DNA of 64,000 nucleotides, from contig JAMYGW020000006.1 in the NCBI GenBank assembly GCA_025617375.2, positions 253,001 to 317,000 on the forward strand, written 5' to 3'. Positions 1 to 47,500 of this stretch are shown in pieces. Every line of letters starts with the position of its first letter. Within the stretch, counting starts at the first letter, position 1. The DNA comes from Acarospora socialis (taxonomy: Eukaryota > Ascomycota > Lecanoromycetes > Acarosporales > Acarosporaceae). The notes under the pieces were generated by a model. It was not told the DNA's origin and did no database searches. It worked only from the letters and a program-made list of their open reading frames with translations. The position numbers were made by a program, and so were the translations under genes.

Positions 1-91
1 CATACAAAGGAGCTCAAATGTCACACTGAAGAGCTTGAATGAATCAATTCTTGTCTTGAATGACACAGCAAAGAACTTGAACACATTGATT
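1..91 (+). other. Hypermutated sequence with a coiled-coil-like reading frame, cut by the first retroelement
   Basis: This short piece precedes the left LTR of the first element. Frame 1 reads as repeated blocks of the type H-T/S-K/E-E-L-E/K, which look like coiled-coil heptads, interrupted by two TGA codons. TGA in place of an arginine CGA would be a C to T change before G, the context seen across the AT-rich blocks. The pre-insertion sequence would continue after 11959. Too little remains to say whether this was a host gene or an older repeat. Confidence 0.3.
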
Positions 92-410
92 TGTTACATC
101 CTAAACCTGAGATGCCTCAAGTATGCTAGGACTAGAGGTTTGTGCTTGTTGATATAACAATTTGTATGATACAGTTGAATAAATCAGTAGATAGTAACTC
201 TATTACTAGATGAGAATTTGAACACAATCATTTTCATAAGAAAAACAATTCTACTATATAGAATAAACTCAATTCTCAAAGAATTGACTCAACATTCTCA
301 GTGTTGCACACAACAGTCTGAATGTTGACTTAATGTCTAACTCATTGTTTGATCTCAGAACTGCACAGTCTGTATACAGTTCTCATATCAACTGCAGTAT
401 GATCATAATA
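92..410 (-). repeat. 3' LTR of the 92-11954 chromovirus
   Basis: Starts TGTTAC and ends in a mutated form of ATAACA. It is the same length as its partner at 11636-11954, and the visible differences are transitions. TGATT precedes it. A purine-rich minus-strand tract directly inside it (rich in GAAGAA) is a reasonable polypurine tract. Confidence 0.92.
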
Positions 411-445
411 TCATTTTCTTCTTCTAGACACTAGTTCTCTGAGTT

Positions 446-486
446 TATATAAGTGAGAGTGTAAAGTTGTTTCATCATCAGTCATG
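446..486 (+). promoter_or_regulatory. TATA box and ATG of an antisense unit, first chromovirus
   Basis: TATATAAG at 446-453 is followed by an ATG at 484. The box lies just inside the 3' LTR and points opposite to gag-pol. The same arrangement recurs in the other four chromovirus copies at about the same distance from the LTR. Conservation of both box and ATG in differently mutated copies suggests a promoter for an antisense transcript. Confidence 0.5.
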
Positions 487-700
487 TCTCAAAAACTGTT
501 CATCAGTCATGAGTTTGACAATCATCTTTGAGCTGTCAAAGAGATTCTCTTCTACAGACACTCTCTCACTATTTCTTGCATGCACTGTTACACTCATAGT
601 CTTTTCTGTATCACAATGAATTCTAATACACACATTAAGTGTGTTGAGTGTACTCATCATGATTGTTTCTGTGTTGATCTGATGTGAAAATCACTGAATT
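484..700 (+). other. Antisense cysteine-rich frame with Zn2Cys6-like spacing, fossil
   Basis: Between 577 and 672 on the plus strand, antisense to the element's own genes, one frame shows cysteines spaced C-x2-C-x6-C-x10-C-x2-C-x6-C. This falls inside the consensus of fungal Zn2Cys6 (Gal4-type) clusters, C-x2-C-x6-C-x(5-12)-C-x2-C-x(6-8)-C. It lies downstream of the TATA box and ATG described separately. The frame as a whole is broken. A metal-binding or DNA-binding role is inferred from spacing only. Confidence 0.5.
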
Positions 701-3058
701 ATGTTTGTAATCAGCTAAAGTTCAAAATTCTGAAAACAGAAAAAGAGTAAACTTGTCTGTTTGTCAAACTCTTCTGATTATAAAAAACTTTGTGTTAAAC
801 TTATGACTGTGTAAAATAGAAGATTCTCTGTTTGCTGAAAGAGATAAATGATAATAATAATGATGATGAAAAAAATTCTCAGTCTGAGACTCTTTCTCAA
901 CTGTTTAATGTAATGCTGATCAACTTCTGACAGTTTAATTCTTTATTTTCTTCTCAAAATGTTGAAGTGTTCTTGTGCAGTTCTTGAGATTTTTCTTGAA
1001 TTTTCATGTATTTTCTGAGATATTGTATTCTTTTCATTTGATGAGATAATAAACTTTCTCTTTAATCATTCTTCTTTTTAGAATGTTCTCAATCTCATAT
1101 TCTTCATTGAATTCAACAGATGTTTCAGTAATCTGAAGTGATATGAACTGATTGCAATGTTGAAGTATGAATGCATGAAATACAGAATGTATTCTCATTT
1201 TCTTGAGTAAGTCAAGTTCATAACTTAGTTTCTTAATATTTTGTTTAATTTTGAATGATTCAATGCTCTTGTTATCTAACTTCTTGCTTTTTTTCTTGAT
1301 GTGTATGTTGTTCATTCTTAAGTATATCTTTTCTCTCTCTTTAAATGATTCTGCTGTTGTTATTCATTCTGTTTGTTGTTTAATCTGTGTTGTTAAGTTT
1401 TGATGCAGTTTCTTTAGTTCATTGATATCTAATATTACTTGTTGACTTTGTGATTCATGTTCTCATGAATCTCATCATATCTTTGAATTGTAATTATAAT
1501 TCACATAGAAAGATATTTTTCTCATGATTTTGTTTCTTATGTTGTTGTACATGAACTGTGTCATAGATAACAGTTGTATTCAGTTGTTCTGATTTTTGTT
1601 GACATAGTGTTTCAAGTATGTTTTCACTGTTTAATTCATTCATTTACTTTGTTTGTTCATCTGTAAGTGATACACTGTCAACATTTTGTGCTTTATTTCA
1701 AGTTCTGCTGTGAGTGTTTCTCAAAACTTATTTATAAACAGTTTGTCTCTGTCAGTGATAAACTCTTTTAATAATTCATGATTACTAAAAAATTCTTGCA
1801 GTATGATGTAAATTAATACTGATGTCATTGCAGTCTTTTTAAATGAAATGAACATGATGTACTTAGTTAATCTATTCACTATGATTAATATGCTGTCAAA
1901 TCTCACTTTTCATGTTGAGTTCTTTAATGATGATAGCTTTATAATGAAGTTCATAGTAACTGATTTTCATGATGCATCTGATGCATTTAGTTGTGTTATT
2001 TCATTATACTGCTTATCTCAACTAATCTTGTTTCTTCAGCATAAATTGCACATAGTAATCATTCTGATGATTCAGTTTCTAAAATTATTAATGTTGTGTT
2101 TTCTTTGTACAAGATCTTTTGTGCATTTGACTTTCAGATATTCTTTGATTTTGTTATGATAACACATCTTAATGAGTTCTTTATTTAACAAGAAAGTGTT
2201 TTTCATCTTGTATATTGTTAATAGTTCTTTCATGAGAATTTTCTTATTGTCTTTGCTTAAAATTTCAGCATAAATTCATTTCACTCTTTCATGATCAAAT
2301 CATCTGCTCAAGATATCTGCTTCATTATTTTTATTATTCTGTTTGTAATGAATCTGAAATTCAAAGTCTGCTAATAACTCAGTTCAGTGAATCTGTCTGT
2401 GATTCAGCTACTTAATTATTGTGAAGTTTCTTAAATTCTTATGATCTGTATAGATCTGAATTAACTTTTCTGTTCTTACAAAATAAAATCTTCATTCTTG
2501 CAGTGCTTTCACTATTGCAAGAAGTTTCTTGTCATAAATTTCATATTTTTTCTCAAATTCTGACAGTTTTCTAAATTGAAATGTTATGAGTTTCTGTTGT
2601 TCATCTTCAATCTAATATAGATATGTGTTGACTGCAAAGTCTGATGCATTGATTTTCAATACTTTTTTGCTTGTTGCATTTGATATGACAAGATGAGTCA
2701 TTTCACTGAGACTTTTCTTCAATGCATTGAATGCTTATTCTTGTTTCTCATCTCAATATCATCTCTCATTCTTCTGCATCAACTGTGTGAGAGATTCTGC
2801 TATTCTCAAATAGTTTAATATGAATTTTCAATAATAATTCATTAGTTCTAGAAAGATCTGTACTTTTCTGATTCTGATTAATGTTGATCAGTGTTTGATT
2901 GCTGCAGTCTTTTTTAAATCTTTTTTGATGCATCTCAGTCAAATCACATAGTTTAGAAACCTGACTTTCTGAGTCTTGAACTTGCTTTTGAATTCTTTCA
3001 TGTACAAGACTTTTTTCTTGAGCTTGTTCAATATCTTGTGCACATGCTTGCAGTACTT

Positions 3059-3387
3059 TGTAATGTTCTAATCTGAGCTTTCTCAAGTATGTAGAGCTAA
3101 GAATTTGTGCTTATTAATATAACAGCTGATCTGAAATGATTCTGATCTTTAACTTTTAGATAGTTACTTAAGTTGAACATGATCAATTTTATGAGAAAAT
3201 CAATTTTACTATATAGAATCAGCATGTCTTGCATGTTCAGCATACTCTTGTGCTTCTTGTTCTGATAGTGTTCTCAGTACTATTGCACACTTTGTTAAGT
3301 TTCATGTTTGTCATCTCATGCTTCTGTATACATTTCTCTGACAGTATATTTAGAACTGTTCATACTTCTTGTGATATGAATATAACA
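3059..3387 (-). repeat. 3' LTR of the nested 3059-8772 copy
   Basis: Begins TGTAATGTTC and ends TATAACA. The first half resembles the LTRs of the other chromovirus copies, and the second half is particular to this subfamily. Preceded by TACTT. Confidence 0.9.
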
Positions 3388-3424
3388 TCATTTTTCTCTT
3401 CTCAGACATTTAATTTCTAGTGTC

Positions 3425-3472
3425 TATTTAAGCAAAAGTATATATTTTAGTTGCTGTCTGTCATTTAGAATG
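3425..3472 (+). promoter_or_regulatory. TATA-like box and ATG of the antisense unit, nested copy
   Basis: TATTTAAG at 3425-3432 takes the place of TATATAAG in the relatives, with an ATG at 3470. It lies just inside the 3' LTR on the plus strand. Confidence 0.45.
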
Positions 3473-3664
3473 CTTGATAAATCTAAAAACTGTCTTGTGC
3501 TTGCAAAAATCATCACTCAGTGTGATGCTGTTTCTTCTCTTACTTGTGAGTGTTGTTGTCATTGTGACATTCTCTGTGTTCAAATGACAGATATTATGAA
3601 ATGCACTGAGTATACTCATCATGACTGTTCTTATGTTTCAGTATCTCTTGAGTTGCTGAACTGA
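3470..3664 (+). other. Antisense cysteine-rich reading frame in the nested chromovirus (64 codons open)
   Basis: An open plus-strand stretch, antisense to gag-pol, begins at the ATG that follows the TATA-like box. It encodes a cysteine-rich segment with C26, C29, C36, C45 and C53 (C-x2-C-x6-C-x8-C spacing at the start), matching the corresponding frame of the 92-11954 element and of the 44161-50233 element. An acidic, helical-looking plus-strand stretch follows. I do not recognise an established domain name. The spacing suggests a zinc-binding cluster of Zn2Cys6 type. As part of a fossil element it is probably not functional here. Confidence 0.55.
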
Positions 3665-6600
3665 GTTTATGAGAAGCTTGAGTTTTAGCTTGATGAAATT
3701 GAGACTGAGCACATCACTCAACTTAAGATTCTTCAATGTCTGAACTTCAAAATCTTGTATTTTCATACAACAATAAAGCAGAATAAGTCTTGAATCTTTT
3801 GAAAGATTCAGTGTGTTGTCTGTTCTCAGATATATTTTTTTTTCTTTTTTGAATAATCTTGTCTTTGTTGTTTGTTCTGTCTGTTGTTTGATTCATTTTG
3901 TTAAATCTTGATGCAGTTTCTTTATCTAAACAACATTCAGAATCACTTTTTGACTTTATGATCTGTATATTTGTGAATTTCATCATATCTTTAAGTTGTA
4001 ATCATAGTTCACATAGAAAGATGTTTCTTCTGTGATCTTGTTTTTTGTGTTGTTGTATGTAAACTGTGTTGTTGACAACAATTGTATTCAGTCATCTTGA
4101 CTCTTGTTGACATAGTGTCTCAAGTATGTTTTTACTGTCTGATTCATTCATTTGTTTTGTCTATCTGTCTGTAAATGATATGTTATTAACATTTTGTATT
4201 TTATTCTGAGTTCTGCTGTAAGTGTTTTTCAGAACTTGCTCATAAACAGCTTGTCTCTGTTAATGATAAACTTCTTTAATAGTTCATGATTGTTAATTAA
4301 TTTTTGCAGTATGATGTATATCAATACTGATGCTGTTGCAGTTTCTCTGAATGAAATAAATATTGTATACTTAATCAATCTGTTCACTATAATTAATATG
4401 TTGTTGAATTTTACTTTTCATGCTGAATTTTTTGATAGTGATAACTTTGTAATGAAGTTCATGATAACTGACTTTCATAATGCATTTAATGTGTTTAGTT
4501 ATGTTACTTCATCATATTATCTATCTTAATTGATTTTATTTCTTCAGCATGAATTGCACACAGCAATCATTCTGATAATTTGATTTCTAAAATTGTTAAT
4601 ATTGTGTTTTCTTTGCATTAAATTCTCAGTGCACTTGATTTCTAGATGTTCATCAGCTCTGCTGTAGTGACATATTTTAATAAGTTTTTTATTTGTCAAG
4701 AAAGCTTGCTTCATCTTGTATATTGCTGCTAAGTTCTTTGTAAGAACTTCTTTGTCATCTTTGCTCAGAATTTTGACATGTATTATCTGTACATCTTCAT
4801 GATCAGATTGTTTATTCAAGATATCTGCTTCATCATTCTCATTATTATTTTTGTAATGAATTTAAAATTCATAATCTATCAACTGCTCTGTTCAACAAAT
4901 CTGTTGTTGATTGAGTTGTTTTGTTATTGTAAAGTTTCTCAAATTCTTGTGATCTGTATAGATCTGAATTGACTTACTCATTTTTGTGAGATAAGATCTT
5001 CAGTTTTGTAGTGTCTTCACTATTGCAAGAAGTTTTTTGTTGTGAATCTCATATTTTTTCTTGAATTCTGATAGTTTTCTAGATCAGTACACTATGAATT
5101 TTTGTTGCTCATTCTCAATCTGATATAGACATGCATTTACTGTGAAATTTAAAGCATTGATTTTCAGTGTCTTCTTACATACTGAATTGAGTATTCTCAG
5201 ATGTGCTGTTTCACTAAAACTTTTCTTTAATATGTGAAATGCATTCTTCTGTTCTTTATTTCAATGTTAATTTTTACTTTTGTGTGTTAAACACATTAAC
5301 AGTTTTGCAATTCTTGCATAATTCAGTACAAACTTTCAATAATAGTTCATTAATTTTAGAAAGATCTGTACTTTCTTGATTCATTTTAATGTTAATCAGT
5401 TTTTGACTGCTTCTGTCTTTTTTAAATTCTTCTTAATTTGTTTAGATTGAATTACATAGTTTAGAAACTCAACTTTCTTAATTTCAAATCTGCTTTTTGA
5501 CTTTTTCACATACAGAGCTCTTTCATTAAGCTTTATCAATATCTTTTGCATATACTCACAGTACTTTTCAAGATTTTCTGAGTATATCAGAATATTATTT
5601 AGATATGTGATTACAAAATCATTGAGATATTCTCTCAACATATCATTGATTAGTCTTTAAAAAATGACTAAAGCATTCTTTAATTCAAACAGCATAACAA
5701 TGTATTCATAATGTCTGTATCTTGTTCAGAATGCTGTTTTTCATTCTTTATCTTTTTTCATTCTAACTTGATAATAAACATTCTTAAGATCTAAGCTTGT
5801 GAATTATTTAGTCTTGTTTAGTTAATCTTGCAATTCTTTTATCAAAGATAGAGAATAACTGTCTCAATGAGTTATCTTATTGAGTTGTCTGTAATTAACA
5901 CATAATTGTTTTTTGTCATTTTTCTTTGACATAAACAGAATTGAGTATTCTGTCAATGATCTTAATGATTTTATGAATTCTCTCTTTAGATTCTTGTCAA
6001 GATAAGTTTTAACTTTCTTGAGTTGATTCTTGCTCATTGAGTACAATGACATTTACTTAGATTGTTTTCTGTTCAATAGTGATATTTTATGATCTTATAA
6101 CTTATACTCTGATAAGCTCATTTCTGATTGTTTAAGAATTTTGTATGTGTTCTTGATTACACATATTTCTTTTATAACTCAGTTGATTTTCAGATTTCTT
6201 TTGTGCAATCAGAACATTTCTAGTACTGCATTATATTCAATTGATTTTATAACATTGAATATTATTTCTTGTGAGTTTTCAAGAATTAAGACTTTCACAC
6301 AGATCTTCTCATCAATTCTTTTGATGACTTCATTTATTATTTGTATGTTAAATGAACAGTGTGCTCATCATGTCTCTAATTCTAATATATTGACTGTTTT
6401 TTAATTTATAATGTTACTGTCTGCTTCAGAATTCATTAATGTGTTGATATGATGTCTGTTGATTGTGATCTTGATTTATATTCAATAATCATTGTTTTGT
6501 CTTTGAGATGCTGCTAGCTTCTTATTTTCTAGTTTTGTTGAGAGAGTTCTTTGTTTTTTGACTCACTTAATCATTGAGCTTGTCTTCAAAGTTCTTAAAA

Positions 6601-8443
6601 TCACTTTGATTCTCTTTTAATCATAAGATTCACATATTTTAGACTGTACTGCTCAATGTATCTTTTCAGATGTAGTCAGAGTTTATACTGATTGTACTTC
6701 ATCTGCAACTGACTCTTAAAGACTTTTATTCTTTGCAGAAATTCAGTTAATATATACTCTTCACTGAAGATTCATCTGTTTCTGTTTTGTGTGATGTATT
6801 TTTTAAGTAAGTGTATCTCAATCTTGTGACTCTTTGTCTTTCAAAAAAGAAATTTTGACAATGTTGCATTGTCACTGTTAAGACATTCATCTTTAACAGC
6901 TATTATCAGCTCATCTAGCTGATCATATGTCTTTTGTTCTTTCACATTCTTGTGTTGTGCTTTTCATTTTCAAACTTGCACTTCTTGCTCAAGTTCTTGC
7001 TTCTTAAACTGAAGCTTTTTGTCTTTCAATGCTCAGCATTGATTCTCAAAGTGCTGATATGCTGTCTTCAGTCTTATATTAACTTTTTATTTGTTGATTT
7101 CTTTCTGATTTGTGTTCAAATTCAGTACTTGTTAAATATTATCACTGTAGTCTTCTTTTATCTGAGTTTTTTGAGTATCAGTTTCTTCAATCTTGACATT
7201 AAGAACATTTTTCTTAATATGTTCTTTTGCAAGAGTAGCTAATTCTTTTTCATAAATTGATCAATCTATTGTGTCATGTTTATCTCTGATGTCTTTATTG
7301 TACAGTTTCTGAGAATATCATTTGACTTTGTCTTTTGTGTTTATGTGTACTCTACACATATCATCATAGCAGATTGTTCAGCTGAGAGTGTCATGCACTA
7401 TGCATGTATTTTTTTTAACTGTTACTGCAATATTTTTTCTTTTCATCTGAGATCTGTTACACTCTCAGACAAGATGTTCAGGTTTTTTGCAGTTGTAATA
7501 CATTTATATTTTGTTTTGTGATGTTATCTGAGACTTAGTGAATCACTTTGACTGACATTCATGCTTCACTCATCTAATCTTTTATAACTTCTAACAACAC
7601 TTCTTAATCACATTGAAATTCATAAAATCTGTTCTTCTACATCTTATTGATGAAATATATTACTTAACTCATGATTAAGAGCTTTCTTCTTGATCTTTTA
7701 TCATAAATAACATTCAATATTCTTTTTGTTTCATCTGTTGTTCTCATTAACAACTATTAATATTAATACTCAGATTAATCATTCTCTGAAGATTGTCTGA
7801 TTGTTTTGTTCAGATTATTTTGTTTTTGATGAACTTTTTTAATTCACAATAGTACTGATAAATGAGTACTTCATCATTTCATCTAATAAGTGTTGTTAAT
7901 CACTGAAACTCTGTGATGTATACTGCTGCTGATTCACTTTGTTGTAAAATATGAACTTATTTTTCTGCTGCTCTTTCTTCATTAATTATTCTAAAGACTT
8001 TTCTTAATTCTTTCTTAAATTATACATAATCATTAAACATAAACTTCATGTCTGCATTACATTTCTTGTACTTCTTTTTTAGAAACTTATGCAGCTTAAA
8101 ATCAATCTAATTGAAAACTGCATTCACAAGATAGATCATTGCAAACAATATTTTCTCTTAATTGATCTGAAACTTTAATTGATTGAATTCAATATATAGA
8201 TTGAGCTTTATCACAAAGACTTACAGTTTTTCTTATTTCTCATCAAAGATATTCAGTATCTGTATCTTAGATGCACTCAGCAGTAGTTGTATTGCATGAA
8301 CTGATATCATCACTGATTGTGTCATCATTCTATCTGAAGTAAATGATAGAGATGAGTTTGTTTAAACTTATCTCAAAAACAAGATTGAGATGTTCTTCTG
8401 TGTGTCAGACATCATACTTATTATATTGTAAGAATATTCAAAA

Positions 8444-8772
8444 TATAATGTTCTAATCTAAGCTTTCTCAGATATGTAAAACTAAAAGTTTATACTTATT
8501 AATATAATAACTGATCTGAAACAGTTCTGATCTTTAACTTTTAGATAGTTATTTAAGTTGAACATGATTGATTTCATGAGAAAATCAATTTTACTATATA
8601 GAATCAGTATATCTTGCATACTCAGCACACTCTTGTGTCTCTTATCTCAATAGTGTTCTCAGTACTATTGCATGTTTTGTTAAGTCTTATACTTGTCATT
8701 TCATGCTTCTATATACATTTTTCTGACAGTATATCTAGAACTGCTCATATCTCTTGTGATATAATTATAACA
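8444..8772 (-). repeat. 5' LTR of the nested 3059-8772 copy
   Basis: Begins TATAATGTTC and ends ATAACA. Same length as its partner, and followed by TGCTT, the altered target duplication. The RT sequence of the outer element resumes immediately after it. Confidence 0.9.
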
Positions 8773-11635
8773 TGCTTCTCAAGACTTTCTGAGTATATCA
8801 GAATATTATTGAGATATGTGATCACAAAATTATTGAGATATTCTCATAATATGTTGTTGATCAATCTCTGAAAGGTGACTGGGATATTTTTGAGCTTAAA
8901 TGACATGATGATGTATTTGTAATGTTTATATCTTGTTTAAAATGTCATTTTTCATTCTTCACTCTTTTTCATTCTTATTCAGTAGTAAGTGTTCTTTAGA
9001 TCTAAGTTGATGAATCACTTAGTCTTGTTTAATCAGTCTTGCAGTTCTTCTATCAATAATAAGAGATAATTGTTTTATCAGATTATGTTGTTAAGCTGTT
9101 TATAATTAACACATAATTGTTTTTTGTCATTCTTTTTTGATATGAATAGAATTGAGTATTCTGTCAATGACTTTAATGATTTTATGAATTCTCTCTTGAG
9201 ATTTTCATCAAGATAAGTCTGTATTTTCTTGAGTTGATCTTTGCTCATTAAGTATAATGACATTTACTTAAATTGTTTTTTCTTCAATAACAGTATCTCA
9301 TGATGTTATAACTTATGTTCTGATAAGTACATCTCTGATTGCTTTGAAATCTCATATGTATGTCTTAGTTTGCATACTTCTTTGTTTATTCAGTCAATTT
9401 TTGAATTTCAGTTTCTCAAGTACAGCATATCTAGTATGACATTGTACTTCATTGACTTCATAACATTTAACATCATTTTCTGACATCTCTCATTGATGTT
9501 TGCTTGTACATGTATCTTCTTATCAATGTATTCATAGCTTCTGTTGATCATATGTACTTGTGCTGAATAAAGTGTTCATATTGATCAAAGTTTCAAACTT
9601 CATACTGTTGCTTCTAAAATATAGTTATTTGTTGTTTTTGAATTAATTAAAGCTCTCATCATTCTCAACAGACAATCATTTTATTCAATGTTTATCTCAA
9701 TCATTATCTTATTATTTCTGTATTCTTAAGACATTAAAAGCTTCTTGTTCTTTAGTCTTGTTGAGAAAACTTGCAGTTTTTTGATTTCACTGCTTCTTCT
9801 GCTCTTCTTTATAGCTCTTTGAATTATGTTGACTCTTGATTATCTAATAGATGTACATACTCTGTGCTGTCTTTTTTGACTCATCTTTCAAAATGTAATT
9901 GTGATTCATACTGATCATATTTCATCTGCAATTGTGTCTTCAAAGTTCTCACTCTTTGCAGAAATTCTAATAAGATATATTCTTCTGTTCAGATTCATCA
10001 TTCATGATTAATAGTGATGTATTTTTCTGATAGTCAAATTTTTATCTTATAACTCTTAATTCTTCATATTAGCTCTCTGAGCATGATTTGATCACAAGAC
10101 TTCATTGCTTGAATATTCTTCAATAATTTCTCAATCTGTTGACTTCAATCTCTCTTGATCTGTAGAGCTTTTTTTTGTCTGATCTCATGTCAAAGTTCTT
10201 TTATTCTTGCTTGTATCTTAAAGAGTTCAAATTGCTTTTGAACTATTGCTGTGTCTTGATTCTGTGAGAATTTGAGTTCTTGTCTGATTATTATGACTTT
10301 GACTTGTTCTTTTATTTTTGTGTTTTCACACATTGTCTCTCACTCTCTTTGATCTCTGTCTACATTGTCTTTGTTGCTGTCAAATTTAAATTGAATAAAG
10401 ATAAAATCTTCTTTGAGTGTTTTTGATTCAGTATCAATCTCAGAGTAATTAATCTTCTGAGTTTCTTAATTATCTGTTTCTTTAATGTTGACATTAAAAA
10501 TATATAATTTCTTCTTCACAGTGTTGTCTGATCTAGATCATTCTGTAATATTGTAAGTTTTTTGTCTTTGATGTGACTTCTTTGAATAATGTTTGATCTC
10601 ATTCTTGATGCTTATGTGTACTCAACACATGTCATTGTAACAAGCTGTTCAGCTAAAATTGTCATGCACTATCTTCTTAGTTGTGATCACAGCTTCTTTT
10701 CTTTCTCTTTGAGATTTTTGACAATTTCTTGTGATGTGTTCAATTCTATTGCAATTGTAGCACTTGCAGATTTCAGTCTTGTTCATGAACTTTCTTTTCA
10801 TGAATCTATCATTTTCTTCTCATAATGCTTCTTTGAATCTCTGTGTTGAGAGTCTTTCTCTATTAATTATATTGAGATTCATTGAATCTGAGTATTGTAT
10901 CTGTGACAATCTTCTATACACATCTCTTTGAGTATATCTGAATATATATTTTTTGAATTGAAATTTCTTTCTTTCTTGTTGTCTTTCTCACACATAACTA
11001 TCAATATTAATTGCAAAATCAATGATATCTTACAATTCATTGAATCTATCAGATCTGACAATCTCATCTTTAATAAATTCTTTGAGTTCTCAATAGAATG
11101 CAAAGTTCAAAGTATTGTCTTTTCATTCTGTCAGTGCTGCTGCTCATTGAAACTTCACTGCATTTTACACTGTCAATTCATTTTGTTACAAGATACAGAT
11201 GCATCATTCTGCTGCTTTTTTCTCATTAATGATTTTAAAGATTCTTCTTATCTCTTCTTTAAACTTAGAATAGCTGTTAAACATAAACTCAGTGTCTTCT
11301 TGTTTTTTCTTGAACATCTTATCAATGAATTTTCTCATGAATGAATCAATTCAATCAAATACTGTGTTTTTAAGATAGAATGGTGTAAACAGAATCTTAT
11401 CTGTGTCACTGAAAAACTTTTGTACATTGAAGCTGATGTACAAGTTCAGTTGAGCTAGAAATGATTGAAGCTTTTTACACTCTCTGATGAAGTCATCAGA
11501 TATTTTGATCTTAGATGTATTGATAGTTATACTCACTTGTTGAGTAACTTCAATCTGACTTGCTACAAGTGATACAGTGAAGATGTTCTTCTGTGTATCA
11601 GACATCATCATATTATATCATAAGAATGTTCAAAG

Positions 11636-11954
11636 TGTTACATTCTAAATCTGAGATGTCTTGAGTATGCTAGGGCTAGAGGTTTGTGCTTGTTGATATA
11701 ATGATTTGTATGATATGATTGAATAAATCAGTAGATAGTAATTTTATTGCTAGATGAGAATTTGAACATGATTGTTTTCATAAAAGAAACAATTCTACTA
11801 TATAGAATGGGCTTGATTTTCAAAGAATTGACTCAACATTCTCAGTGTTGCACATGACAGTCTGAGTGTCAACTTGACATTTAGCTCATCATTTGGTTTC
11901 AGGGCTGTGTGGTCCGCATGCAGCTCTCATATCAACTGTGGTATGGTCATAACA
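11636..11954 (-). repeat. 5' LTR of the 92-11954 chromovirus, with a less mutated right edge
   Basis: Begins TGTTACATTC and ends ATAACA, followed by TGATT. From about 11893 to 11954 it keeps GG, CC and CG dinucleotides that its partner has lost, so it preserves near-ancestral sequence. The edge nearest unique DNA has evidently mutated least. Confidence 0.92.
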
Positions 11955-11959
11955 TGATT

Positions 11960-17925: not shown

Positions 17926-17953
17926 TGTGAGTCTCAATATCTATCTATCACAG
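17926..17953 (-). repeat. 3' LTR of the 17926-37400 Gypsy element, first piece
   Basis: These 28 bp match the start of the intact LTR at 37166. A chromovirus was inserted after CACAG, the last five bases. Confidence 0.85.
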
Positions 17954-18305
17954 TGTAATGTTCTAACCTGAGATTTCTCAGATATGTAGAACTAAAAGTT
18001 TGTGCTTATTGATATAACAGCTGATCTGAAACAGTTCTGATCTTTAACTTTTAAATAGTTATTTAAGTTGAACATGATTTCTTTCATAAGAAAAATGATC
18101 ATGACTATATACTGAGTTCACTCACTGATCTCATTGTTGAGCTCATTAAGATGACTTATTCATGCAATTTATTGAGTTTGCTCATCAAACTCATCATCAA
18201 ACATATTGAGATATCACATAACTGTTGTCTAACATTTCTTCAGATGTATGCTCTTTCTATATATGCATCAGTTCACTTTAAGTCTCTTCTGACTTGATTA
18301 TAACA
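17954..18305 (-). repeat. 3' LTR of the 17954-24089 chromovirus
   Basis: Begins TGTAATGTTC and ends ATTATAACA. The first 150 bp follow the family pattern; the second half contains repeated CTCATCAA-like blocks shared with the 44161-50233 subfamily. Confidence 0.9.
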
Positions 18306-18342
18306 TCATTTTTTTCTTTTCAGATGTTAATTTTCTAAAATC

Positions 18343-18386
18343 TATATAAGTGAGAGTATTCTCATTGTTTGTTGTCAGCAATGATG
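18343..18386 (+). promoter_or_regulatory. TATA box and ATG of the antisense unit, 17954-24089 copy
   Basis: TATATAAG at 18343-18350 is followed by two ATG codons at 18381 and 18384. A cysteine-bearing plus-strand stretch follows near 18450-18540. It has the same position relative to the 3' LTR as in the sister copies. Confidence 0.5.
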
Positions 18387-21300
18387 CTTTTTAAAAATTT
18401 CAATCATCTAAGAATTACAAAGAAAATTCAGATCAGTGATGTGACTACTTTGTTTTCTTGTGACTATTGTGTCTGTTGTGACATTGATTGTTTTGTAATG
18501 AAATCTTGACTGAAATGTGATAAGTACACTTGTTATAATCACTTATATATCAATGTATTGTGAAAGTCTCTCAACTGAACTTGTCTTTCACTTCAAAAAG
18601 AAATAAGTAAAGCAAACAGCAAATTAACAGTCAAGCACACTGAGTTTGCTGCATTTTTCTTAAAAGTCATGCATCTTCAAAAAACACTGAATCAAATGAA
18701 CTGCTGTGCTTTGCAGAAGACTGACTGTCTTGTTGTTGAACTTAATAGTGATAATGATAAAACTGAGAATGAAAATTCTCAAACAATGTTACAACTTATT
18801 AACTTTATATTGTCATTCTTCTAAACTAATATCAACTTTTTTTTTCAAAACATTGAAATGTTTTTGTGCAGTTCTTGAGATTCTTTTTGAGTTTTTAGAT
18901 ACTCTTTGAGATATTATAATCTTTTTATTTTATGAGATAATAAACTTTTTCACTAATCATTCTCTTTTCTAAAATGTTCTCAACTTCATATTCTTTGTTG
19001 AGTTCAACAGACATTTCATTAATTTAAAGTAATATGAACTGATTGCAGTGCTGTAGCATGAATGCATGAAATACTGAATGTATTTTCATTTTCTTGAGTA
19101 AGTTTAGTTCATAACTTAATCTCTTGATGTTTCATATGATCTTGAATAATTCAATATTTTTGTTCTTCAGCTTCTTACTTCTTTCTTTAGTTTTTATATT
19201 GTTTGTTTTTAAGTATATTTTTTCTTCTTTCTCAAATGATCTTACATTTATTGTTTATTCTGTCTACTGTCTGATTTATTTTGTTAGATTTTGATGCAGT
19301 TTTTTCATTTGAGCAATATTCAAAATCACTTTTTGATTCTGTGATTCATATTCTTTGAGATCTTGTTATATCTCTGAGTTATAATTATAGTTCACATAAA
19401 AAGATGTTTCTTCTGTAATTTTGTTTCTTATATTATTGTATATAAATTGTGCTGTTAACAACAGTCATACTTAATTATCTTAACTCTTGTTGACATAGTG
19501 TTTCAAGTATGTTTTTATTGTCTGATTCATTCATTTACTCTGTTTATTTGTCTGTAAATGATATGTCATCAACATTTTGTGTTTTATTCTGAGTTCTGCT
19601 GTGAGTGTTTTTCAAAACTTGCTTGTAAACAGTTTGTCTCTGTTGATGATAAATTCTTTTAATAGCTTATGATTGTTAATTAATTTTTGTAGTATGATGT
19701 ATGTCAATATTGATGTTGTTGTGATTTTTTTGAATGAAATAAACATTGTATACTTGATTAATCTGTTCACTATGATCAATATACTGTTGAATTTCATTTT
19801 TCATGCTGAATTCTTTGACAGTGATAACTTTATAATGAAATTCATGATAACTGATTTTCATGATGTGTCTGATGTGTCTAGTTGTGTTACTTTGTTGTAT
19901 CATTTATTTTAATTAATCTTATTTCTTTGATATGAATTGCACACAGCAATCATTTTGATAATTTAATTTTAAAAATCATTAATATTGCATCTTCTTCACA
20001 CTAAATCTTCTGTGCATTTAACTTCTAAATGTTCTTCAGTTTTATTGTAATGACATATTTTAATGAGTTCTTTGTCTATTAAGAGAGCTTACTTTATCTT
20101 ATATATTGTTGTTAAATCTTTCATGAGAACTTCTTTATTGTCTTTGCTCAGAATTTCAACATATATTGTCTGTATGTTTTCATGATCAGATCATTTACTC
20201 AAGACATCTGCTTCATTATTCTCATTATTTTTTTTGTAATGAATTTGAAATTTATAATCTGTCAACTGCTCTGCTCAACAAATCTGTCATTGATTGAGTT
20301 ATTTTGTCATTACAAAGTTTCTCAGATTCTTGTGATCTATATAGATTTGAATTGATTTGCTTGTTTCTGCAAAATAAGATCTTCAGTTTTGTAGTGCTTT
20401 CACTATTGTAAGAAGTTTCTTATTATAAATCTTATATCTTTTCTTGAATTCTGACAGCTTTCTAAATCAGTATATTATGAATCTTTGCTGTTTCTTCTCA
20501 ATCTGATATAGATATGTATTCATTGTGAAGTTTAATGCATTGATTTTCAGTGTCTTTTCACATATTGAATTGAGTATTCTCAGATGTGTCATTTCACTAA
20601 AACTTTTCTTTAATACATGAAATGCATTCTTCTGCTTCTTATTTCAATGTTATTTTTCACTTTTGTGTGTTAATCATATCAGTGATTCTGCAATTCTTGT
20701 GTAATTTGATACAAATTTTCAATAATAGTTTGTCAATTCTAAAAAGACTTGTACTTTCTTAATTCATTTCAGTGTTAATCAGTTTCTAACTGCTTTTGTC
20801 TTCTTTGAATTCTTCTTGATTTGTTTAAATTGAATTACATAGTTTAGAAATTCAACTTTCTTAATTTTAAATCTGCTTTTTGATCTTTTTATGTACAGAG
20901 CTTTCTCATTGAGTCTTGTCAATATCTTTTGTACATGCTTGCAATACTTCTTTAAACTTTTCAAATATATGAGAATATCATTAAAATACATGATCACAAA
21001 GTCATCAAGATACTCTCTCAATATATCATTAATCAATCTCTAAAAGATAACTGATGCATTCTTCAATTCAAATAACATAACAGTGTATTTATAGTGTTCA
21101 TATCTTGTTCAGAATGTTGTCTTTCATTCTTTATCTTCTTTCATTTTAACTTGATAGTAGACATTCTTAAGATCTAAACTTGTAAATTACTTAGTCTTTT
21201 CTAATCAGTTCTGCAACTCTTTTATCAGCAGTAGAAAATAATTATCTTAATGAATTATCTTGTTGAGTTGTCTGTAATTGACACATAATCATTTCTTGTC

Positions 21301-23736: not shown

Positions 23737-24089
23737 TATAACATTCTAATCTGAGATTTCTTGAGTATGTAGAACTAAAAGTTTGTGCTTATTGATATAA
23801 TGACTGATCTGAAATGATTCTGATCTTTAACTCTTAAATAGTTATTTAAGTTGAACATGATTTCTTTCATAAGAAAAATGATTGTGACTATATACTGAGT
23901 TTGTTCATCAGTCTCATTGTCAAGCTCATCAAGATGACTTACTCATGCAACTCATTGAGCTTGCTCATCAAGCTCACTGTCAAGCATGTCAAGATATTAT
24001 ATAATTACTGTTTAACATTTCTTCAGATGTACATCTCTTTCTGTATACACATCAGTTCACTTTAAGTTTCTTCTGACTTGATCATAACA
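23737..24089 (-). repeat. 5' LTR of the 17954-24089 chromovirus
   Basis: Begins TATAACATTC and ends CATAACA, followed by CATAG and then by the rest of the interrupted Gypsy LTR. Confidence 0.9.
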
Positions 24090-27832: not shown

Positions 27833-28193
27833 TGTAATATTCTAATCTAAGATTTCTCAGATATGTAGAACTAAGAGTTTGTGCTTGTTGATATAATAAC
27901 TGATCTGAAATGATTCTGAACTTTAACTCTTAAATAGTTACTTAAGTTGAACATAATCATTTTCATAAAAAAAACAACTCTACTATATAGAATGTGCTTG
28001 AAGTCTCTGCATTGAGCACTCTTGATGTCTTGATGTTTTGATGTTGAGAAGTTGAGTTTTCAACTTGTTTACTCATCATCAAGCTGTTGCACTGTCATGT
28101 AACTGCTGTCTAACAGTTTTCTCTGTATATACTTCAGATGAACTTCTGATCACAGACTCATGAGTTTTTTTCTTTTTAAACATGATTATAACA
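27833..28193 (-). repeat. 3' LTR of the 27833-34012 chromovirus
   Basis: Begins TGTAATATTC and ends ATTATAACA. Its differences from the partner LTR are almost all transitions, falling at CpA and CpT because CpC and CpG are already gone from both. Confidence 0.92.
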
Positions 28194-28230
28194 TCATTTT
28201 CTTCTTCTCAGATGCTAATTCTCTAGAGTC

Positions 28231-28274
28231 TATATAAGTGAGAGTATTCACATTGTTTGTTGTCAGCAACAATG
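28231..28274 (+). promoter_or_regulatory. TATA box and ATG of the antisense unit, 27833-34012 copy
   Basis: TATATAAG at 28231-28238 is followed by an ATG at 28272, in the arrangement shared by the other copies. The plus-strand sequence behind it resembles that of the sister copies. Confidence 0.5.
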
Positions 28275-31200
28275 CTTTCTAAAAATTTCAATTGTCTAAG
28301 AATCACAAAGAAAATTTAACTCAGTAATAATTTCATCACATTTTCTTGTGAATTCTGTACTGCTCACAGTATTAATTACTTTGTTATGACTGATGAAAGA
28401 TTGAAATATAATAAATATACTTATCATGATCATCTGTGTATTGCAGTTTCATGAAAGTCTCTCAACAGAACTTGTCTTTTTCTCTGAAAGAAAATAAGTG
28501 ATGTGAATATGACTTTCAATATTTTTGCTGTCAAAATGATGTGTTTTCAAAAGACTTTAAATCAAATAAATCATTATGCTGTGCAGAAAATTGACTGTCT
28601 TGTTGCTGAACTTAATAGTGATAATGATGAAACTGAGAATGAAGATTCTCAAACAATGTTGTAACTTGTTAACTTGATGTTGTCATTCTTCTGAACTAAT
28701 ATTGATTTTTTTTCTCAAAATATTGAAGTGTTTTCACACAGTTCTTAAGATTCTCTCTTGATTTTCAGATATTTTCTGAGATATTATAATTTTTTCATTT
28801 TATGAGATAGTGAACTTTCTCATTAATCATTCTCTTTTTTAGAATGTTCTCAACTTCATATTTTTCATTGAATTTAACAAACATTTCATCAGTCTGAAGT
28901 GATATGAACTGATTGCAATGCTGTAGCATGAATGCATAAAATATTGAGTGTATTCTCATTTTTTTAAATAAATCTAACTTGTAACTTAATTTCTTGATGT
29001 TCTGTATAATCTTGAATGATTTAATGCTTTTGTTTCTCAGCTTCTTGCTTTTTTCTTTTGTTTGTATGTTGTTTATTTTTAAATATATCTTTTCTCTCTT
29101 TTCAAATAATTTTGTCTTTATTATTTGTTTCATCTACTGTTCAATCTGTTTTGTCAAATCTTGATGCAGTTTCTTTATCTGAGCAATATTTAAGATCACT
29201 TTCTAATTTTGTGATCTGTGTCTTTTAGAATCTTGTTATATTTCTGAATTGTAGTTATAGTTCACATAGAAAGATGTTTCTTTTGTGATTTTGTTTTTTG
29301 TGTTGTTGTATGCAAACTGTACTGTTGACAATAGTCATACTTAGTTATTCTGATTTTTGTTGACATAGTGTCTTAAATATATCTTCATTATTTAATTCAT
29401 TCACTTGCTTTGTTCATCTGTCTGTAAATAATATGTTGTTAACATTTTGTGTTTTATTTTGAGTTCTGCTGTGAGCATTTTTCAAAACTTGCTTGTAAAC
29501 AGCTTGTCTCTGTTGATGATAAACTTCTTTAATAGTTCATGATTGTTAATTAATTTTTGCAGTATAATGTATGTCAATACTGATGCTGTTGTGATTTTTC
29601 TGAATAAAATGAATATTGTGTACTTGATTAATTTATTCATTATGATCAATATATTGTTGAATTTCATTTCTCATGTTGAATTCTTTGATAATAATAGCTT
29701 CATAATGAAGTTCATGATAACTGACTTTCATGATGCATCTGATGTGTTTAGTTGTGTTACTTTGTCATATTGTTTATCTTAATTAATCTTGTTTCTTTGA
29801 CATGAATTGCACACAGCAATTATCTTGATGATTTGATTTTTAAGATTGTTAATATTGCATTTTCTCTGCACTAAATCTTTAATGCATTTAACTTTTAGAT
29901 ATCTCTCAATTCTGCTGTAGTAACACATCTTTATGAGTTTTTTATCTGTTAAAAAAGTTTGTTTTATCTTATACATTGCTGTTAAGTTCTTTGTGAGAAT
30001 TTCTTTATTGTCTTTGCTTAAAATTTCAGTGTGTATCATCTGTACATCTTTGTGATTGAGTTGTCTATTTAAAACATTTATTTCATCATTCTTATTATTC
30101 TTCTTGTAATAAATCTGAAATTCATAATCTGTCAACTGTTCTGCTCAATGAATCTGTTGTTGATTGAGTTGCTTTGTTATTGTAAAGTTTCTCAGATTCT
30201 TGTGATCTGTATAGATCTGAATTGATTTATTTATTTTTGTGAGATAAGATCTTCAATCTTGTAATGCTTTCACTATTGCAAGAAGTTTCTTGTCATGAAT
30301 CTCATATTTTTTCTTGAGTTCTGATAACTTTCTAAATTGATATATTATGAGTTTTTGTTGTTCTTTCTTGATCTGATATAAATATGTTTTTATTGTAAAA
30401 TTTAAAACATCAGTTTTCAGTGTCTTCTTACATACTGAATTTGATATTCTCAGATATGCTGTTCTGCTAAGATTTCTCTTTAATGTGTGAAATACATTCT
30501 TTTGCTCTTGATTTCAATGTTATTTTCTATTTTTGCATGTTAAATGCATCATTGATTCTGCAATTCTTGCATAGTTTGATATGAATTTTCAATAATAATT
30601 TGTTAATTCTAGAAAGATCTGTACTTTCTTAATTTATTTTGATGTTAATCAGTTTCTGACTGCTTCTGTCTTCTTTGAATTCTTCTTGATTTGTTTAGAT
30701 TGAATTACATAGTTTAAAAATTTAACTTTTTTGATCTTGAATCTGCTTTTTGACTTTTTCATGTACAAGACTTTCTTGTTGAGCTTTACTAGTATTTTGC
30801 ACACATACTTTCAATATTCTTTAAGATCTTCTGAATATATCAGAATATTATTAAGATATGTGATCACAAAATCATTGAGATATTCTTTTAATATGTCATT
30901 GATCAATCTCTAAAAGATGACTGATGCATTTTTTAATTCAAATGACATGATGATGTATTTGTAGTGTCTGTATCTTGTTTAAAATGCTGTCTTTCATTTT
31001 TCATCTTCTTTCATTCTAATTTGATAGTAGATGTTTTTAAGATTTAAGCTCATAAATCACTTAGTCTTGCTCAACTGATTTTGCAATTCTTCTATCAGTG
31101 ATAAAAAATAATTATCTTGATGAATTATTTTGTTGAGTTGTCTGTAATCAACACATAATTGTTTTTTGCTGTTCTTCTTTGACATAAACAGAATCAGATA

Positions 31201-33651: not shown

Positions 33652-34012
33652 TGTAACATTCTAATCTGAGATTTCTCAGATATGTAGAACTAAGAATTTG
33701 TGCTTGTTAATATAACAGCTGATCTGAAATAATTCTGAACTTTAACTTTTAGATAGTTATTTAAGTTGAACACAATCATTTTCATAAGAAAAATGACTCT
33801 ACTATATAGAATGTGCTTGAAGTCTCTGCATTGAGCATTCTTGATGTCTTGATGTCTTAATGTTGAGAAATTGAGTTCTTGACTCATTTGCTCATCATCA
33901 AGCTGTTATGCTGTCATGTAACTGCTGTTTAGTAGTTTTCTCTGTATACACTTTGAGTGAACTTCTGATCACAGACTCATGAGTTTTTTTCTCTTTAGAC
34001 ATGATCATAACA
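33652..34012 (-). repeat. 5' LTR of the 27833-34012 chromovirus
   Basis: Begins TGTAACATTC and ends CATAACA. Followed by AATCT and then the resumed RT region of the interrupted Gypsy element. Confidence 0.92.
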
Positions 34013-43714: not shown

Positions 43715-44160
43715 CTTGGTAGGAATACTATCTTATTTACTTCCTCCTGTTTTCGGCACCTTGCTTCTGTACTGTACGGAGTAACTTACAGTGCCGGAAA
43801 AAACTCTGTGCCGTTTGGAAACTCGCAAAAACCACACTTGTTGAAATGCTCAGTTTTTCTTAAAAACACACAAATACTGCAACTACTCCACAACCACAGC
43901 TTATACAGACAATCTGAGTATGTAAAATGATGAATTATATATATATCTAATAGAAATTCAATTTTCATATGTATCTTTAAGCAATTACATGAGTGATTAT
44001 TCAAAACAGTGTGTTTTAAGTGTTTCTGTTGTGAAATAACAGCATTTTTGCACTGTTTTTAACATATAACTCAACAACAACTATTTACTACAATAATCTA
44101 AGACTACAGTATTAAAATATATATAAATCTCTATTATCTTTGAGAATTCTGAGTCAATTG

Positions 44161-44501
44161 TGTTACATTTCAACTGAGATTTCTTGATTATAGGACTAGA
44201 GGTTTGTGCTTGTTGATATAAAGATGTGAAAGATGTTGATAGTTAAATCAGTAGCTTTAAATTGAGTAACTAAATGAGTTGAACACAGTTGATTTCATAA
44301 AAAAATTAATTCTACTATATAGTGAGTTCACTTGCTGATCTCACTGTCAAGCTTGTTGAGACAGTTCACTCATGCAATTCATTGAGCTTGCTTATCAAAC
44401 TTCTCATCAAACATATCAAAATGTCACATGACTGCTGTTCAGCAGTCTTTCTTTTATGCTCTTTTTGCATAATCTCATGCATTTATTTCTTAATTGTAAC
44501 A
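44161..44501 (-). repeat. 3' LTR of the 44161-50233 chromovirus
   Basis: Begins TGTTACATTT and ends TTGTAACA, preceded by AATTG. Same length as its partner. Confidence 0.92.
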
Positions 44502-44539
44502 TCATTTCTTCTTTTCTGAGACACTAGTTCTTTAGAATC

Positions 44540-44583
44540 TATATAAGCAAGAATTTTCACATTGTTCACTGTCAGTAATGATG
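44540..44583 (+). promoter_or_regulatory. TATA box and ATG of the antisense unit, 44161-50233 copy
   Basis: TATATAAG at 44540-44547 is followed by ATG codons at 44578 and 44581. Behind it, near 44650-44740, a plus-strand stretch shows the C-x2-C-x6-C-x8-C-x2-C spacing seen in the other copies. Confidence 0.5.
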
Positions 44584-47500
44584 CTTTCTAAAAATTCAAA
44601 CTGCTTAAGAATTGCAAAGAAAATTCAACTTGATGATGCATTCATCTCATTTTCTTGCAACTATTGTGTCAGTCATGACATTAACTGTTTTGTAATGAAA
44701 TCTTGATCAAAGTGTGACAAATGCATTCATCATAATCATTCATATATCAATGTATCTTGAAAGTCTCTCAACAGAACTCACATTTTGCTCTGAAAGCAGA
44801 TTAACAAAGTAAATGATGAACTGACAGTTAAGCACACTGAACTTACTGTTTTTTTCTTCAAAATCATACATCTTCAGAAAATTCTGAATCAAACAGATTG
44901 TTATGTTGCACAGAAAACTGACTGTCTTGTTGCTGAACTTAATAATGATAATGATGAAACTGATGATGAAAATTCTTTCATTGAGCATTACATACAGCAA
45001 CTCATCAATTCAATGTCTTTATTCTTCTGAAAATCTATTCTTAACTTTTTTCAAAGTGTTGAAGTGTTCTCACACAGTTCTTGAGATTTCTCTTGAGTTC
45101 TTAGATATTTTCTAAGTCATTATATTCTCTTCATTTAACAAGATAATGAACTTTCTCATTAATGAATTTCTTATCTAGAATTAACTGTACTTCATATTCT
45201 TCATTAACTTCAACAGATGTTTTGCTGATCTGAAGTGATATGAACTGATTGTAATGTTGCAACATGAATGCATGAAATACTGAGTGTATTCTCATTTCTT
45301 TAAATAAGTCAAGTTCATAACTTATCTTTCTGATATCTCTTATAATTCTGAAAGATTCTATGCTCTTATAATTTAATTTCTTACTTCTTCATCACATATG
45401 AATGTTATTCATTCTTAAATAGACTTTCTCTTCAATTTAAAATGATCTTGCTGTTGTAACTTGTTCTGTTTGTTGTTTAATTCATACTGTCAGATCTCAG
45501 TGTAGTTTCTTTAACTGTGCAATGTTCATTATTGTCTTTTGACTCTGTGATTCATGCTTTTTAAAATCTCACTATATCTTTGAGTTATAGTCATAGTTCA
45601 CATAGAAAAACATCTCTTTCATGATCTTGTTCTTCACATTGTTGTATACAAACTATGCTGTTAACAACAGCTGTACTCAGTCATTCTGATTTCTATTGAT
45701 ATAGTGTTTTAAATATGTTTTGACTGTTTAATTCATTCATTTGTTCTGTTTATCTGTTTGTGAATAATATGCTGTCAACATTTTATATTTTATTCTAAGT
45801 TCTGCTGTGAACATTTCTCAGAACTTGTTCATAAATAGTTTGTCTCTGTTAATGATAAATTCTTTTGATAGTTCATAATTGTTAATTAATTCTTGCAGTA
45901 TAATATACATCAATACTGATGCTGTCACAGTTTCTTTAAATGAAATAAACATTGTGTACTTGATCAATCTGTTCACTATAGTCAATATATTGTTGAATTT
46001 TATTTTTTATGTCAAATTCTTAAACAGTGATAACTTCATAATGAAGTCTATAATAACTGACTTTCATGATGCATCTGATACATTCAGTTATGTTACTTTA
46101 TTATATTGTTTGTCTCTCTGAATTCTGTTTTTTCAATATGAATTGTATTTAGTGATTATCTTGATGATTTAATTTCTAATATTGTCAATATTGCATTTTC
46201 TCTGTACAAGATTCTCTGTATACTTAACTTTTAGATGTTTTTCAGTTTTGCTGTGATGACACATTTCAATGAGTTCTTTATTCATCAAGAAAACTTGCTT
46301 TATCTTATACATTACTGCTAAGTTCTTTGTTAAAACTCTCTGATCATCTTTGCTCAGAATATTGACATAAATTCACTTTATTTCTTCATAATCAAATTGT
46401 CTGTTCAAGATATCTGCTTTATTATTCTCATTATTTTTCTTATAATGAATTCAGAATTCAAAGTCTGTTAATAACTCTGTTCAGCAAATCTGTCTATGAT
46501 TTAACTGTTTGATCATTGCAAAGTTTCTTAAGTTCTTGTGATCTGTATAGATCTAAATTGACTTGCTTATTTTTGTAAAATAAAATCTTTACTTTTGCAG
46601 TGCTTTCACTATTGCAAGAAGTTCTTTATCATAAATCTCATATTTTTTCTTGAATTTCAATAACTTTCTAGATTGAAACACTATGAATCTTTGTTGATCA
46701 TCTTTGATCTGATACAAACATGTGTTTACTGTGAGATTTGAAGTGTCAGTTTTCAGTACTTTTTTATATACTGAATTGAGTATTCTCAAATGTGCTGTTT
46801 CATTAAAACTTTTCTTTAATATGTAAAATGCATCTTCTTGATCTTGTTCTCAATGTTATTTTTCATTCTTGTGTATCAAACACATTAGCAGTTCAGCAAT
46901 TCTCATATATTCTGATACAAACTTTCAATAATAGTTTGTTAAGTCTAGAAAAACTTGTACTTTCTTGTTCTGTTTTGATGTTAATCAGTTTTTGACTGCT
47001 TGCATTTTTCTTGAATTCTTCTCAATCTGTTCAGATTAAATTACATAATTTAGAAACTCAATTTTCTTGATTTTAAATCTACTCTTTGACTTTTTCACAT
47101 ACAGAGCTTTCTCATTGAGTCACATTAATATTTTACATATATGTTTGCAATATTTCTCAAGCTCTTCTGAATATATCAGAATATTATTGAGATACATGAT
47201 TACAAATCTATCAAAATATTCTCATAAAATGTCATTAATCAGTCTTTAAAAGATGACTGAAGTATTTTTGAGTTTAAATGACATAACTGTGTACTCATAG
47301 TGTTCATATCTTGTTTAAAACATCATTTTTCATTCTTTGTTCTTCTTCATTCTTACTCAGTAATAAGTCTTCTTAAGATTTAAACTTGTGAATTACTTAG
47401 TTTTGCTTAATCAGTCTTGCAACTCTTTTATCAACAATAGAGAATAATTATCTCAATAAATTATCTCATTGAGTTGTCTATAATCAACACATAGTCATTT

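Follow-up and report, generated by a model that had tools for sequence, protein, structure and literature searches.

The 64,000-nucleotide stretch of the Acarospora socialis genome analysed here (the window; C6:253001-317000, the genome searched comprising 31.1 Mb in 38 contigs) contains five long terminal repeat (LTR) elements, E0, E1, E2, E3, and E4, delimited by self-comparison and LTR pairs. Each of them carries, antisense to gag-pol, a broken gene for a small zinc-cluster-like protein behind a TATA-like box. The genes were detected using a profile of 11 public-database proteins with no row from this genome; at a domain E-value of 0.01 or less, its matches in the six frames of the window were only these five genes (domain E from 6e-38 to 5e-16). 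Their features are the following:

446..453, + strand: E0 TATATAAG box of the antisense gene
484..987, + strand: E0 broken antisense zinc-cluster gene (ATG at 484; profile match 499-984, domain E 2.1e-32; 8 stops inside; TGA 985-987)
577..672, + strand: E0 six-cysteine motif, C-x2-C-x6-C-x10-C-x2-C-x6-C
3425..3432, + strand: E1 TATTTAAG box
3470..3820, + strand: E1 shortened, broken antisense gene (ATG at 3470; match 3467-3820, domain E 5.4e-16, profile positions 5-122 of 169; 4 stops)
18343..18350, + strand: E2 TATATAAG box
18381..18878, + strand: E2 broken antisense gene (match 18387-18872, domain E 5.4e-30; 4 stops inside)
28231..28238, + strand: E3 TATATAAG box
28272..28748, + strand: E3 broken antisense gene (match 28266-28745, domain E 2e-25; 5 stops inside)
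44540..44547, + strand: E4 TATATAAG box
44578..45084, + strand: E4 broken antisense gene (match 44578-45081, domain E 5.8e-38; 4 stops inside)

The original prediction, made from the letters of the window, placed these five boxes at 446, 3425, 18343, 28231, and 44540 just inside the LTR, and the LTR pairs bear this out for the low-coordinate LTR of each element. The predicted distance of 31-42 bp from the box start to an ATG had to be corrected to 38-45 nt; counted from the first base of the box, the in-frame ATG follows at 38 nt (E0), 45 nt (E1), 38 or 41 nt (E2), 41 nt (E3), and 38 or 41 nt (E4). The six-cysteine motif announced for E0 is indeed read from 577, and the full Zn2Cys6-like pattern (middle loop of 5-12 residues) has no other occurrence in the six window frames. 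The shorter pattern C-x2-C-x6-C-x(8-10)-C, expected in further copies, occurs five times, four of them in the antisense genes of E0, E1, E2, and E4 and the fifth outside the antisense genes at 11627. In all five window copies, C-to-T hypermutation at CpG and CpC has introduced stops, and the gene is dead. Because such hypermutation converts arginine CGY codons to cysteine TGY, extra cysteines in the window copies may be artefacts; the six cysteines of the motif are present also in little-mutated relatives.

A search of the same genome with the E0 region retrieved a little-mutated copy on contig 14 (CpG 0.46-1.22 of expectation in 500-base steps), the LTRs of which share 99.06% identity across 319 bases. 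Starting at an ATG that follows TATATAAG by 38 nt, its antisense frame runs for 167 codons without a stop, so that an intact frame beside a Gypsy element exists outside the window, and the encoded protein contains SCMHCHTHSLSCIAMDSDTHTKCAECTRRGRPCVGL and has the pattern C-x2-C-x6-C-x10-C-x2-C-x6-C. No transversion separates this copy from E0 over the gene minus its last 51 nt; the E0 stops outside these 51 nt thus arise from transitions. Stops also break up the pol of the contig 14 copy, the open pieces of which match PF00385 (65.1 bits), rve (38.1 bits), and RT_RNaseH (117.1 bits), as well as the integrase zinc-binding and SH3 domains. A chromodomain ends pol behind the integrase, which makes the element a chromovirus (Ty3/Gypsy). 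Its Gag carries its own CCHC knuckle, read from the sequence. The pol and antisense frames, stops included, overlap by 53 nt (L022 2015-2067), and the last codons of both genes therefore use the same DNA.

The profile matched all 66 copies collected from this genome and none of the reverse-strand frames. This set is biased, as the gene or its region was the query that retrieved 61 of the 66, and the gene also determined the orientation of most. To avoid this bias, a sample (n = 20) was drawn by taking about every seventh row of 150 listed chromodomain matches, oriented by the chromodomain; some of these places also belong to the gene-selected set. The antisense gene was present, whole or in part, at all 20 loci in a single reading register, overlapping the chromodomain match by 35-38 nt when extrapolated to the model end. 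Two of these loci held the later part only (L112, profile 89-168; L114, profile 59-166). Genome-wide, at least 151 matches were obtained at E ≤ 1 (150 scored of 304 candidates); in this and some further searches, the own-genome protein was used in a form lacking 20 N-terminal residues (147 of 167). Integrase-core loci, taken as a contrast, had the gene in 7 of 10 cases, and it was not found at L009, L011, and L012. L009 (C30:15338-15613) has 68% GC, more than the other integrase-core loci, and is perhaps a contaminant; by eye, and without a family search, L011 is Copia-like, and visual inspection of L012 points to a piece of a related pol. Another locus, L046 (C14:524986-526560), with 50% GC and not hypermutated, has antisense-gene matches in two frames and looks like an old relic of another antisense-gene subfamily. 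Most copies of the family thus carry the gene. Like genes of the aORF-3R type (aORF, antisense open reading frame), it is antisense to gag-pol and sits between pol and the 3' LTR, and its fixed register overlaps the last chromodomain codons of pol.

The word TAT[AT]TAAG alone is weak evidence of a promoter, with 22 matches in the window versus 6.7 expected. Sought in about 205 nt, the best TATATAAG match was situated 23-49 nt before the start of the gene model in 60 of the 66 own-genome copies, the six others being L041, L046, L050, L065, L074, and L091. The TATA-like box occupies the same alignment columns in all of the 17 representatives, which were hand-picked from the subfamilies, and departs from TAT[AT]TAAG in four of them (L038, L041, L065, and L091). 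It is the fixed place of the box, not the word itself, that counts as evidence. This box is just inside the LTR, and the ATG with which the gene begins mostly follows it at 38-48 nt.

Selection was evaluated in 59 copies, in three groups, by counting purine/pyrimidine-variable columns by antisense codon position; transitions were left out because they are produced by hypermutation, which cannot create transversions. Within the gene, the counts at antisense positions 1, 2, and 3 were 30, 23, and 65 (p = 2.6e-6), compared with 41, 37, and 33 upstream of it (p = 0.65). In pol they were 9, 25, and 8, with the peak at the third position of pol itself (p = 0.0015). By group, third-position clustering had p = 2.6e-6 in A, 0.035 in C, and 0.29 in B. 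The codon-position bias proposed as a check on the gene is therefore found among the copies, with none upstream. The antisense gene is real, common to several element subfamilies, and was formerly under codon-level selection; its existence is, in our judgement, close to certain. The results accordingly support the proposal that a chromodomain Gypsy family has an antisense accessory gene, with its own TATA box, whose product is a small zinc-cluster-like protein.

Searches of protein collections yielded 60 relatives with the contig 14 protein, 125 with a profile, and 346 at E ≤ 0.1 with a wider profile. The 120 listed of these 346 include proteins of Cercospora kikuchii, Periconia macrospinosa (named Zn(2)-C6 fungal-type by UniRef), and Sporormia fimetaria, all Dothideomycetes; no Botrytis name is among the 120, most of which are listed without any name. 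The profile aligns with all of the 211 collected public proteins. The motif is covered in 180, of which 174 have all six cysteines, with a middle loop of 7-12 residues in 171 and of 14-15 in three; in set A3, protein P0074 is present twice. Among the 66 own-genome copies, 28 (group A type, e.g., L039) have a middle loop of 18 residues, which exceeds every loop in the 174 public proteins as well as the 5-12 residues cited in the original prediction, and the full cysteine pattern is missing in 17 of the 66. Some relatives look hypermutated, such as a 222-residue group with Arg-to-Cys/His and Ser-to-Phe differences. P0041, P0049, P0051, P0052, and P0059 share just 42-54% identity with the contig 14 protein yet retain a tail like SPPQNVEASSRSS. 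In the contig 14 copy, the strand opposite to this tail encodes the end of the chromodomain, which suggests that these relatives, too, may overlap a pol. By a rough pattern, such a tail occurs in 35 of the 211 proteins and in none of the 67 of the Periconia/Sporormia group, so that the members of this group may or may not belong to retrotransposons. Stretches fitting a pattern in viral contigs with DNA context (2) and in prokaryote genome contigs (12) included none confirmed as a relative.

Zn_clus scores were below the Pfam cut-off of 21 bits for L022 (11.1) and P0001 (17.4). In a second set of 10 proteins, five matched at 13.9-18.2 bits and five had no row at E ≤ 0.1. Matches at E ≤ 1 were found in 30 of 58 rows, the best of which (E 2.2e-4, no printed score) might pass the cut-off. 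Searches of PDB by sequence gave weak matches only (E ≥ 0.27), mostly to helical proteins, with PPR1 at E 9, and NCBIfam likewise gave weak matches only. In the Foldseek comparison of P0001, 19 of the 22 PDB matches were named Zn2Cys6 domains (HAP1, LEU3, GAL4, PUT3, PPR1, Pho7, and AlcR), the remainder being one mitochondrial ribosome chain and two kinetochore chains, which we take to be Cep3; for P0195, Pho7 and Leu3 occupied the top four places of 10. Prediction supports an arrangement in which a small zinc cluster precedes a helix of some 55 residues (66-120 in one prediction, 63-118 in another), which probably forms a coiled-coil dimer, and an acidic stretch comes next; the mean charge is +3.5 in the helix and -5.1 over the next 22 profile positions. 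The DNA-contacting part of Zn2Cys6 domains is formed by basic residues of the Cys2-Cys3 loop. In the 180 relatives this loop is not basic (mean net charge 0.06, K/R at most 21% per position), and the Cys5-Cys6 loop has a charge of +1.6.

The likeness to GAL4-type domains (PF00172) consists in the spacing C-x2-C-x6-C-x(n)-C-x2-C-x6-C, with n = 7-15 in 174 of the 211 public proteins, in the coiled-coil-like helix behind the cluster, and in the nearest PDB folds. The differences are that the whole protein has about 165 residues and is retrotransposon-encoded, that the basic residues lie in the other loop, that the printed scores fall below the cut-off, and that n is 18 in the 28 copies mentioned. 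The zinc-cluster label of the original prediction consequently stands in the sense of Zn2Cys6-like and not of a classical member, and the product is probably a Zn2Cys6-like dimer.

In comparisons between subfamilies, the antisense gene and the LTR differ strongly and the adjoining pol hardly, even at third positions; for L023 versus L029, the distances are 0.22 in the LTR, 0.34 at third positions of the gene, and 0.06 at those of pol. Across 24 representatives, the gene distance correlates with the LTR distance (Mantel r = 0.81) and far less with that of the abutting 420 nt of pol (r = 0.26, p = 0.001; given the LTR, -0.02, p = 0.61). The mean purine/pyrimidine distance in 21 representatives is 0.21 for the gene versus 0.04 for the adjoining pol. 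Both sets were hand-picked from the subfamilies, and the subfamily comparison uses L005 in place of L002, whose orientation was wrong and whose columns were ignored. E2 is near E4 in the LTR and the gene, yet nearer L029 in pol, a pattern indicative of exchange between elements. Compared with L023, the LTR and antisense gene have histories differing from that of pol in L029, L034, L005, L031, and E1-E4. The pair L023 and L031 runs opposite to the main pattern, with pol closest, the gene somewhat closer, and the LTR most distant.

The LTR of the contig 14 element contains a GC-rich palindrome with an arm of 19 bases (L023 735-773) that none of 40 shuffles equalled; it may be a binding site or form a hairpin. 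A weaker inverted repeat was observed in the L034 LTR (arm 13, 0 of 40 shuffles as good), and the inverted-repeat search of 17 LTR stretches, among which L024 is the same element as L023 and L002 was in the wrong orientation, found no palindrome common to the remaining LTRs.

Zhao et al. are said to have described brtn of Boty-like retrotransposons in Botrytis cinerea in 2011 (Virology 417:248). As far as the available parts of the sources go, both plant elements and Botrytis Boty, where the gene is called brtn, have antisense genes located between pol and the 3' LTR (PMC7264820, PMC8365987, PMC4227169); the kind is thus already known at the same place, and the earlier statement that no chromovirus with such a gene had been described does not hold, since brtn, antisense in a fungal CHROMO-domain Gypsy element, was in print. 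brtn is alike in that a fungal Gypsy element with a CHROMO domain in its gag-pol bears it as an extra gene on the opposite strand (PMC7264820, PMC8365987, PMC4227169) and in its site between pol and the 3' LTR (PMC7264820); it differs in that the word zinc is absent from the available text of PMC8365987 and PMC7264820, the comparison being by description only. The plant aORFs (Grande gene23, RIRE2, Retand, and PvRetro13) share the position, an own upstream promoter (Grande), and the occurrence in related families, whereas their proteins are described in the same partial text without clear similarity and the protein here is fungal and Zn2Cys6-like (PMC7264820). That text gives no known function for antisense ORFs between pol and the 3' LTR (PMC7264820). 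Among the papers listed by searches of the open-licence PMC library, none describes an antisense gene of zinc-cluster type in a fungal Gypsy element. New, as unreported in the literature searched, are the zinc-cluster identity, the promoter position, the dual-coding overlap, the LTR coupling, and the genome-wide regularity. A similar manner of working would be that of HBZ of human T-cell leukemia virus type 1 (HTLV-1), an animal retrovirus; HBZ is a small regulator with a coiled coil, expressed in antisense from the side of the 3' LTR, although this basic leucine zipper (bZIP) protein is unrelated. The HTLV antisense promoter is mentioned in the part of a review available (PMC7264820).

Because the divergence of the gene follows the LTR far more than the adjoining pol, a regulator directed at the LTR is the favoured function, and we regard it as an evenly balanced question whether the product acts there on its element. 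The protein would be expressed from its own antisense promoter, would enter the nucleus and dimerise, and would act on the DNA of its own LTR as a regulator of element transcription; the predicted acidic stretch leans to an activator over a repressor. Taken together, a real antisense zinc-cluster gene whose protein regulates its element via the LTR is, by a little, the account we would choose. Two points weigh against it: the LTR coupling could also be explained by a crossover hot spot at the border of the gene and pol, and the basic residues are in the Cys5-Cys6 loop instead of at the GAL4-type DNA contacts. The latter would suit a protein of the same zinc-cluster/coiled-coil build that acts on RNA, the capsid, or the integration complex (nuclear import, packaging, or site choice with the chromodomain) and not on LTR transcription. 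The fixed overlap with the chromodomain is in keeping with such a role, as is the nuclear location of some plant antisense ORF proteins, for which the available text suggests a part in retrotransposition (PMC7264820). The Gag of the contig 14 copy, however, already has a CCHC knuckle, and the divergence of the gene tracks the LTR rather than pol, which leaves this explanation unlikely but deserving of attention.

An anti-defence factor directed at host silencing, whether mutation resembling repeat-induced point mutation (RIP), heterochromatin, or RNA interference, would fit a host that drives these repeats to a CpG of 0.00 of expectation and a gene that outpaces the adjoining pol in divergence (0.21 versus 0.04), as arms-race genes do. 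The LTRs, however, diverge about equally fast, so that speed says little, and most of the copies fetched are mutated anyway; we consider this improbable. Slightly less probable again is an antisense RNA as the functional product, controlling the element through double-stranded RNA: the promoter-like box is conserved and the same idea has been offered for plant elements in the text available (PMC7264820), but third-position transversion clustering and six near-invariant cysteines indicate selection on a protein. Zn2Cys6 proteins are abundant in fungi, and a captured host gene might have been carried as a passenger without function for the element; its presence in whole or part at 20 of 20 sampled loci, its fixed register, and codon selection in pooled copies make this very improbable. 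Arg-to-Cys changes do occur in hypermutated copies and TATA-like words are common in the window, from which a chance cysteine pattern and chance TATA boxes could have arisen through Arg-codon hypermutation and AT-rich sequence. The motif is nevertheless found in the little-mutated contig 14 copy and in 174 of 180 relatives. Given the profile matches, the codon-position bias, and the six cysteines in relatives, this artefact was rejected and has next to no probability left.

Returning to the LTR-directed regulator, we consider it possible, at a lower level of confidence, that the LTR and an antisense-encoded, LTR-specific zinc-cluster regulator form a detachable control module that passes as one piece from one pol lineage to another. 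The regulator would have its 3' end on the back of chromodomain codons, so that neither gene would be free to change at the overlap.

The remaining features of the five elements are listed below; the low-coordinate LTR is the 3' LTR because the minus-strand chromodomain matches of E0 and E3 agree with a minus-strand pol.

92-11959: E0, whole outer element
92..415, - strand: E0 3' LTR (partner 11636-11959, pair 83.0% identical)
947..1099, - strand: E0 chromodomain (PF00385, C6:253947-254099), closing pol and sharing DNA with the last part of the antisense gene
3061-8773: E1, whole element, nested inside E0
3061..3388, - strand: E1 3' LTR (partner 8446-8773, pair 86.0% identical)
17948-24089: E2, whole element
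17948..18305, - strand: E2 3' LTR (partner 23731-24089, pair 85.0% identical)
27833-34012: E3, whole element
27833..28193, - strand: E3 3' LTR (partner 33652-34012, pair 89.5% identical)
28708..28860, - strand: E3 chromodomain (PF00385, C6:281708-281860), end of pol, overlapping the antisense gene
44160-50233: E4, whole element
44160..44501, - strand: E4 3' LTR (partner 49892-50233, pair 84.5% identical)

From position 1 to about 50,600, the window consists mostly of repeats with 26-31% GC, interrupted by GC-richer islands at 12-18 kb and 42-44 kb, and its last 13 kb are GC-rich gene space. In positions 1-11,000, the observed-to-expected ratio is 0.00 for CpG and 0.02 for CpC, CpA and CpT show no depletion, and the composition table has a similarly low GC content in most of 1-50,600. 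This near-complete C-to-T hypermutation at CpG and CpC is a RIP-like signature of the window repeats. A RIP-like context at CpG/CpC is reported for Coccidioides repeats in the available part of PMC9409882. An inverted repeat pair, 84% identical, flanks E4 (43787-44018 and 50336-50568), perhaps an older repeat beside which E4 landed. A CHORD domain in two stretches and a CS domain at 50853-51737 (+ strand) mark a CHORD-containing host gene adjoining the repeat block.

An antisense accessory gene is here tied to a definite domain type, with selection visible through the mutational wreckage. Because the domain type, selection, promoter place, dual coding, and LTR coupling are known, the question of function becomes testable, namely which DNA is bound and whether the own LTR is recognised. 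Some of the anonymous fungal proteins of roughly 165 residues that databases label hypothetical or Zn(2)-C6 may be products of retrotransposon genes. If true, the control module would provide a fungal retrotransposon with a self-encoded transcription factor, with relatives well beyond this genome.
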